Shown here piece after piece: positions 16,636-38,276 of a DNA stretch of 64,000 nucleotides. The notes under the pieces are model-generated. The model saw only the letters and a list, made by a program, of their open reading frames with translations, had not been told where the DNA came from and did no database searches. Every line of letters begins with the position of its first letter. The first letter of the stretch is position 1. A program made the position numbers and the translations under genes. This DNA is from Gammaproteobacteria bacterium (GTDB lineage Bacteria > Pseudomonadota > Gammaproteobacteria > SZUA-229): assembly GCA_024636785.1 (NCBI GenBank), contig JAGXGK010000042.1, forward strand, positions 18,636-82,635. Reading direction: 5' to 3'.

Positions 16636-16660
16636 GAGCCCGGTATGCGGGCTTTTTTTT
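16636..16660 (+). terminator. Rho-independent terminator after prepilin
   Basis: AGCCCggtatgcGGGCT followed by T-run. Confidence 0.75.
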
Positions 16661-16704
16661 GCCCTGCTTTTAATGAAACCTGTAAACTAAAGTTCAGCAT
16701 AATC

Positions 16705-17445
16705 ATGAAAGTTATTGAGTGTAATAATCTGCTTAAATCCTACGGTGCCAAAAAAGTGCTCGATGGCATTAACCTGTCGGTAAATCGGGGTGAATTTTTC
16801 GGGCTGGTGGGTATGAACGGCAGCGGCAAATCCACCATGATTAAAGCCATGCTCGATCTGGTGGCGGTTGATGGCGGCGAGATAAAACTATTTGGTGAGC
16901 CGCATCGTCAGGTAACGGCAAGAAAAAAACTGGCCTATCTGCCCGACCGCTTCTCGCCACCGCCACACCTTAAGGGCAAAGACTTCATCTGCTACATGCT
17001 TGAGCTTCAGGGTCAGAAGTGCGATGAAGCCGGCATCAATAAAATGCTCGACGCACTGGAGCTGGACAAAGCCGCAATGCAGTCATCGGTAGGCAAACTC
17101 TCCAAAGGCATGACACAAAAACTAGGCCTCGCGGTCTGTCTGCTGAGTGATAAAAAACTACTCATACTCGACGAACCCATGAGCGGACTGGACCCCAAAG
17201 CCAGAGTGCTGTTTAAACAAGAATTGCACAGTAAAAAACGAAATGATCCGGAAGACCCCGGCCTCACCGTTTTTTTCAGCTCACACGTTCTGGCCGACGT
17301 CGACGAACTCGCCGACCGCATAGCCGTACTGCATAACAGCAAACTGATGTATGTCGGCAGCACTGCAGGTTTTAAAAAAGAGTATGCAGCAGAAACGCTG
17401 GAAGAAGCCTATATGCAGTGTATTGAAGGCATAGTTGGCAGTTAA
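16705..17445 (+). CDS. ABC transporter ATPase (PilH-like candidate)
   Basis: Walker A GMNGSGKST, signature LSKGMTQK, Walker B LLILDEP. Confidence 0.85.
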   Translation: MKVIECNNLLKSYGAKKVLDGINLSVNRGEFFGLVGMNGSGKSTMIKAMLDLVAVDGGEIKLFGEPHRQVTARKKLAYLPDRFSPPPHLKGKDFICYMLELQGQKCDEAGINKMLDALELDKAAMQSSVGKLSKGMTQKLGLAVCLLSDKKLLILDEPMSGLDPKARVLFKQELHSKKRNDPEDPGLTVFFSSHVLADVDELADRIAVLHNSKLMYVGSTAGFKKEYAAETLEEAYMQCIEGIVGS

Positions 17446-17459
17446 AAGCTAAACAAGGA

Positions 17460-17620
17460 GTCCGCGAAAAACGCACTAAAATGCCGGGAGCATTTTGAAC
17501 GCACGCAGTGCGGCCCGGAGGGTAAAGCGCAGGATTGCGCGTAATCAAGAACGCGAAAAAACCATTTAATTCATACGCTCTGCTTTTGACTTTTTCGCGT
17601 CCTTCGCGTTTTTCGCGGAC
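17460..17620. repeat. Dispersed intergenic repeat with 15-bp perfect inverted arms carrying an inner three-hairpin element (copy A)
   Basis: GTCCGCGAAAAACGC at 17460-17474 and its reverse complement at 17606-17620. Confidence 0.7.
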
Positions 17621-36780: not shown

Positions 36781-38175
36781 ATGACTGAAAAACCACAAGT
36801 ATGGATTATTGATGACGATGAATCGATTCGCTGGGTGCTGCAAAAATCACTGGAACAGGCGGGCATGGAAGTTACCAGCTTCAACAAGGCGGATGGCATT
36901 CTCGACCGGCTGCAAACCTCCGAACCCGATACTATTATCACCGACGTGCGCATGCCCGGCATGGATGGCCTGACCCTGCTCACCGCATTGTCAGAATCCT
37001 ATCCCGAAATTCCGGTCATCATCATGACCGCCCATTCCGATCTCGACAGTGCGGTTTCCGCCTTTCAGGGCGGCGCGTTCGAATACCTGCCCAAACCTTT
37101 CGATATCGACGATGCCATCTCACTGGCGCAACGCGCCTGCATCCGGCGCCACGAAACACAGGGCGTACCTGCTGCGCCGCAGGCCCTGCCGGAAATCATC
37201 GGCGAAGCACCCGCCATGCAGGAAGTGTTCCGCGCCATCGGTCGACTTTCCAGATCCAACATTAATGTTTTGATTACCGGCGAATCGGGTACCGGTAAGG
37301 AACTGGTCGCACAGTCACTGCATAAACACAGCCCGCGTTCCGCACAGGAATTCATCGCCCTGAATACCGCAGCCATTCCCAAAGACCTGCTCGAATCTGA
37401 ACTGTTCGGTCACGAACGCGGAGCCTTTACCGGCGCGCAGACACAACGCAAGGGGCGCTTCGAACAGGCCGACGGCGGCACTTTATTTCTCGACGAAATC
37501 GGCGACATGCCATCCGAATTGCAGACACGACTGTTGCGCGTACTGGCGGATGGTATCTTTTATCGCGTCGGTGGTCACACCCCGATCAAGGTGGATGTTC
37601 GCATCATTGCCGCGACACACCAGAACCTTGAGCAACGCGTGAAGGAAGGCCTGTTCCGTGAAGACCTCTATCACCGCTTGAATGTAATACGCATCCATCT
37701 ACCCGCCCTGCGCGAACGCCGTGAAGACATCCCGGCATTGCTCAATCTTTTTTTGCACAAAGCCACCAAGGAGCTCGGTGTTTCGCCCAAACAATTATTA
37801 CCGGAAGTAGAACAATACCTGTCGACCATGGAATGGTCCGGTAACGTCCGTCAGCTGGAAAATACCTGTCACTGGTTAGCGGTAATGACCTCCGGCAAAA
37901 CCATTCACCTTTCTGATCTCCCCGAAGAGCTACAGCCAAAAAACCAGACCCCGTCGTTAAGCGGAAGCACCTGGCAACAGGGTATCGCCCATTATGCAGA
38001 AAATATGCTGCAATCGGGCAGGGACAGAATAGCAGACGAAATTATCCCCGATGTCGAACGCGTTCTCATAGACGCCGCGTTAAAACAAACCCATGGCCGC
38101 AAACACGACGCCGCAAAACTGTTGGGCTGGGGCAGGAATACACTGACGCGAAAAATTAAGGAACTGAATATTTAA
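36781..38175 (+). CDS. glnG: Nitrogen regulator NtrC
   Basis: REC domain [34 protein letters not shown], Fis-type HTH. Confidence 0.96.
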
Positions 38176-38189
38176 TACTGGGATTTTTC

Positions 38190-38276
38190 ACCGCAGACAA
38201 ATTTTTCTGGAAAAAATTTGAACAGCCGCAGGCTGGCCCGAAGGGTAGAGGGCAGGAAGCCCGAAATAACCGCAGA
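38190..38276. repeat. Three-hairpin element copy B inside an ACCGCAGA repeat context
   Basis: Hairpins at 38198-38220, 38224-38234 and 38250-38262; ACCGCAGA on both sides. Confidence 0.65.

Follow-up and report, generated by a model that had tools for sequence, protein, structure and literature searches.

The two copies of a 71-nt element carried by the window (i.e. the whole stretch of 64,000 nucleotides that was analysed) belong to a real, structurally constrained and mobile repeat family. The reading favoured here, with a probability of about 0.6, is that this element is a short mobile repeat of ~71 nt that is non-autonomous, forms four adjacent hairpins on its sense strand and is recognised as a folded single strand, the copies linked to tRNA or rRNA genes being transcribed. 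The two copies and their host sequences are as follows.

17460-17474, + strand: left arm of the host inverted repeat of copy A, GTCCGCGAAAAACGC, 100% complementary to 17606-17620
17476-17546, + strand: copy A of the element (71 nt), subtype CTAAAATGC, junctions A|C...TC|A, 71.5 bits with the covariance model R1 (filters off)
17477-17497, + strand: hairpin 1 of copy A, loop CGGGA at 17485-17489 (RNA and DNA folds)
17500-17512, + strand: hairpin 2 of copy A, CGCAC-GCA-GTGCG (fold and stem covariation)
17513-17523, + strand: hairpin 3 of copy A, GCCC-GGA-GGGT (fold; CCCGNAGGG nearly invariant)
17527-17540, + strand: hairpin 4 of copy A, GCGC-AGGATT-GCGC (fold and stem covariation)
17606-17620, + strand: right arm of the host inverted repeat of copy A, GCGTTTTTCGCGGAC, perfect complement of the left arm
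38190-38197, + strand: left host flank of copy B, ACCGCAGA, a repeat of the 12-mer type, with an 8-nt direct copy at 38269-38276
38198-38268, + strand: copy B of the element (71 nt), subtype CAAATTTTT, junctions A|C...TA|A, 88.7 bits with R1
38198-38220, + strand: hairpin 1 of copy B, loop CTGGA at 38207-38211 (RNA fold and loop conservation)
38223-38235, + strand: hairpin 2 of copy B, CAGCC-GCA-GGCTG (fold and stem covariation)
38236-38246, + strand: hairpin 3 of copy B, GCCC-GAA-GGGT (fold and conservation)
38250-38262, + strand: hairpin 4 of copy B, GGGC-AGGAA-GCCC (fold and stem covariation)

The first-pass annotation had described three hairpins within 17463-17560, all of which lie where it had placed them and appear in the RNA minimum-free-energy fold. 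However, GGCCCGGAGGG, which it took for a linker, is instead a further hairpin (GCCC-GGA-GGGT, 17513-17523), and the fold of 17476-17546 therefore displays four hairpins, not three. The core of hairpin 2 had been correctly located, but its stem extends to C17500-G17512, and the element itself, whose boundaries were defined from aligned copies, covers 17476-17546 and not the whole of 17463-17560. The second copy announced near 38.2 kb, with the same loops, was found at 38198-38268; its RNA fold shows these four hairpins again but with other stems, including the exchange of GCAC/GTGC for AGCC/GGCT that had been pointed out, and its covarying outer hairpin-4 pair is T38246-A38266. The core pattern matches the window twice, versus 0.00 expected from shuffled sequences, and the third-best R1 match in the window, after copies B and A, reaches 11.1 bits.

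The structure of the element is maintained by compensatory change. In the alignment of R1, a covariance model made from 31 diverse copies, 99.1% of the pair cells form (75.9% in shuffles), a proportion that falls to 25-41% when the partners are slid, and double-sided changes affect 168 cells versus 50 in shuffles. As the R1 copies had been selected partly by pairing, covariation was retested on sets that were not so selected. Among 122 non-redundant matches to a pattern leaving the hairpin-2 arms free, 111 have all three positions paired; in 56 copies chosen by spacing alone, pairing is seen in 97.6% of the 1232 cells. The selection on structure suggested from the two window copies is thus strongly supported. 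These 56 copies include 19 G.T cells but only 5 A.C cells, an excess which indicates that folding involves the sense strand; a folded RNA would give an equal bias. The CNGGA loop of hairpin 1, the GNA triloops of hairpins 2 and 3, the A(N)GGA of hairpin 4 and the linker AA are conserved, whereas the outer hairpin-4 pair alternates between C-G and T-A. GNA triloops are unusually stable in DNA. Fold z-scores are lower with DNA parameters (-5.1) than with RNA parameters (-3.2), which is weak evidence for single-stranded DNA; the difference partly reflects the energy parameters themselves, and the antisense strand gives z-scores similar to those of the sense strand. A closing stem formed by the flanks was rejected as a general feature: it is significant against swapped flanks, but the effect is lost at non-tRNA sites with same-locus controls (5 copies exceed all their controls, versus 5.4 expected).

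The element is far from restricted to the pair of copies first noticed. Indeed, a search with R1 recovered at least 43 copies from the host MAG, whose completeness is 72.6%; of the 57 genomes searched, 47 carry the element, with a maximum of 84 copies per genome. In a pattern scan of GTDB, the matches listed belong mostly to Gammaproteobacteria, including Thioalkalivibrio, Alcanivorax, Marinobacter, Halomonas, Pseudomonas, Psychromonas, Ectothiorhodospira and other genera. The family is therefore dispersed across Gammaproteobacteria. A second type (type II), found in Pseudomonas, Alcanivorax, some Thioalkalivibrio and at E. coli tyrT, has hairpins 1 and 4 devoid of GGA loops. A phage origin was discarded, with a single viral contig only. 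Some copies (L005, L098, L176 and L181) occur as close inverted pairs resembling BIMEs or REPINs.

Copies are precisely placed between an A and usually a purine (A|C...TA|R). The left end is A|C and the right end TA|A or TC|A; most copies have GA before the left junction, and an A precedes the left-end C in nearly all of them; the profile of the right-end site is partly conditioned by the way in which the ends were chosen. The hosts include 12-mer inverted repeats, REP-like sequences (CATTCCCGCGAAAGCGGGA|ATCC), duplicated tRNA 3' tails, the 3' tail of 5S and the element itself. The duplicated tRNA tails are cut in the T-loop at TTCGA|ATCC, mostly with an intact tRNA upstream. Nested copies have unnested counterparts, and head-to-tail tandems are also found.

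Empty orthologous sites are provided by a sister species (G004) with ~91% identity over the flanking genes. The site of copy B is empty in this species and has the same length once the 71-nt insert is removed, so that at least copy B was recently gained or lost between the sister species. Furthermore, the presence of ACCGCAGA on both sides of copy B corresponds to a host unit and not to an 8-bp target duplication, which this empty site rules out. Another copy (L021, G000:C13:7675) is missing from G004, where the site reads CACCGCAGA|GGCGCAGAGGGCGCAGAG, with the same length and one substitution, and the site of a third copy (L018) is empty with one host-repeat unit fewer. Globally, three copies of the host MAG have empty sites in the sister species, two of exact length and without target duplication, which supports the insertion into a surrounding repeat initially proposed for copy A; at copy A itself, the orthologous locus is too diverged to be read.

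The CGCGAAAAA sequences reported on both sides of copy A are present at 17463-17471 and 17552-17560, within a larger inverted repeat with arms of 15 nt. The 12-mer of the host inverted repeats, TTCACCGCAGAGNNCGCAGAG, has 45 matches in the host MAG, several of them as facing pairs ~70-240 bp apart (e.g. G000:C7:20536-20630). The two flanks of a single element covary, with CGCAGAG or CGCGAAA on both sides. The window genes 16645-17445 and 36781-38175 encode an ABC ATPase and a sigma54-type regulator, both named by inspection; in five other species of the genus, these genes adjoin each other in convergent orientation, whereas ~20 kb separate them here, and both split points bear host repeats with the element. 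A separate MITE-like repeat of ~125 bp (L021:1-125, G000:C13:7200-7325) has ~30 copies, ~80-95% identical, in the host MAG and ~40 in the sister species.

Two known kinds of sequence are homologous to the element, namely the tyrT repeats (RtT) and the rrn T1-T2 spacer of E. coli, and the family is thus not wholly new. The window has no Rfam match at gathering thresholds, and the best relatives tested, a tRNA-linked copy (29.4 bits) and the rrn copy (24 bits), both align over the full length of RtT (RF00391) below its cut-off of 45 bits. Conversely, among the tyrT repeats, which Rfam identifies as RtT at 133-138 bits, three are matched by R1 with 23.7-27.3 bits (E 9e-5 to 8e-4), inside the Rfam matches. 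The match to an already described element that the first-pass annotation had envisaged is therefore partial. The Box C repeats of E. coli, on which a literature search yielded nothing of use, and integron attC sites were also considered as candidate relatives. The 178-bp tyrT repeats (RtT/rttR) share with the family the core GGCCCGAAGGG or GACCCGAAGGGC, hairpin 2 ahead of this core and the junctions TTCGA|C...GAGTA|ATCC within a duplicated tRNA 3' tail. Such a tail hosts many members of the family but neither window copy, both being away from tRNA genes, and the loops of hairpins 1 and 4 differ in RtT. The pairing drawn by Rfam also differs from the local hairpins supported here: at L212 711-1495, in its consensus, the partner of the GGTTC arm is the CCCGAAGGG segment, whereas covariation favours local hairpins 2 and 3.

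At a duplicated 5S 3' end, with the junctions GGA|C...ATA|A, the rrn T1-T2 spacer displays the four hairpins of the element, with CGGGA and AGGAC loops; it reaches 74.2 bits with R1 and is not annotated as a repeat in MG1655. Unlike the window copies, located in an intergenic palindrome, it is tied to a duplication of the rRNA terminator. Its presence varies among E. coli strains. In ATCC 25922, the rrn operon beside yhdZ lacks a 168-bp block (5S tail, T1 and element), a picture that a deletion between the duplicated tails would also give.

How the copies spread can be read in several ways. The element itself might not transpose at all and be disseminated by gene conversion or recombination between multicopy host repeats. 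The 45 copies of TTCACCGCAGAGNNCGCAGAG in the MAG and the location of one subtype at an identical point of the host repeat agree with this; the copies with empty sites, all three of one subtype and located in homologous host repeats, could owe their spread to gene conversion, which can explain part of the pattern. However, equally precise junctions are found in hosts that are unrelated, namely tRNA tails, REP-like hairpins, the 5S tail and the element itself, which implies insertion without any need for homology and makes this explanation of the whole family quite unlikely. The relation to REP/RAYT systems evoked at the outset fares still worse. REPs are defined by a GTRG-type head tetranucleotide followed by a palindrome. 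Like REPs and BIMEs, the element is short, intergenic, hairpin-forming, repetitive and devoid of target duplication; Y1 transposase genes are present in 42 of the 57 genomes, and rtT-like repeats have been termed BIMEs (PMC2965389). Nevertheless, its conserved sequence includes no GTRG head, the consensus of its left boundary being GAC, and it associates several hairpins in a fixed order with precise ends. Moreover, copy number does not follow the number of Y1 genes, some genomes harbouring 16-19 copies and no detected Y1 gene; R1 has no match at the ten Y1 loci examined, and no RAYT was found next to the element. Mobilization of a REP or BIME by a RAYT or another Y1 transposase is therefore very improbable. 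The non-autonomous elements of the IS200/IS605 type resemble the element by their terminal hairpins, strand-specific structure and lack of target duplication, and the empty sites reveal precise insertion without such duplication; however, no linked TnpA was found, and the target GA|R is not a known tetra- or pentanucleotide. The search for an autonomous partner, limited to the 10 Y1 loci and to a host MAG 72.6% complete, found none.

The element could also be mainly a functional RNA module, of the kind claimed for RtT (a small RNA, an attenuator or an element of 3'-UTRs), the loops of hairpin 1 (CNGGA) and hairpin 4 (CANGGANG) being CsrA/RsmA sites and its spread resulting from the usefulness of the RNA or from CsrA titration. 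The CsrA/RsmA consensus is CANGGANG in a hairpin loop. Hairpin 4 of type I copies resembles it, although the loop often has 5 nt and misses the first N. In nearly all these copies, the loop with its closing pair has the sequence CA(N)GGANG, and a few of them, such as L196, match RUACARGGAUGU exactly. Furthermore, 52 of 248 copies lie at most 350 nt downstream of a tRNA gene on the same strand, and two tRNA-linked copies that are otherwise identical (L034 and L036) differ by a compensatory change. RtT RNAs are expressed in A. pleuropneumoniae, where they were detected as sRNAs on Northern blots (PMC4986893), and rtT-like BIME repeats located upstream of gatY, rbfA and cvpA were proposed as candidate attenuators (PMC2965389). 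However, GGA loops are missing from type II copies and from the E. coli tyrT repeats, and the presence or absence of copies between sister species is unlike a conserved role for the window copies. The orientation relative to neighbouring protein genes is too weakly biased (35 of 57) to argue for a 3'-UTR role, which was set aside. As an account of the whole family, a primary RNA function thus seems unlikely. An RNA role is nonetheless likely for the tRNA-linked RtT copies, and type I copies, with their CsrA-like hairpin 4, may have one as well.

The precise, duplication-free insertion of a strand-specific fold into unrelated sites fits the mobile repeat favoured here, with recognition as a single strand by a trans-acting recombinase. 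According to the proposed mechanism, a recombinase or transposase acting in trans would recognise the folded single strand, probably of DNA, which would then be joined at the target. The copies linked to tRNA or rRNA genes would be transcribed along with the host gene, and some of them, such as RtT, may have been retained for an RNA role. More broadly, and with rather less than even confidence, the element might represent a class-wide, unnamed family of four-hairpin mini-elements that move as folded single strands by means of an enzyme, the RtT repeats and the rrn T1-T2 spacer of E. coli being resident copies.

The tyrT/RtT repeats, the rrn T1-T2 spacer and unnamed intergenic repeats, which have apparently been treated apart, are hereby united as one structured mobile family; a literature search of incomplete coverage found no publication describing the family as such. 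The exact ends and the target rule make the search for the enzyme testable. These data also suggest that a stable-RNA by-product studied for a role in the stringent response may have originated as a mobile element. Finally, a plasmid copy of the rrn spacer (L211:2501-2570) lies just upstream of a TEM beta-lactamase gene and probably derives from the rrnB terminator cassette of a cloning vector.
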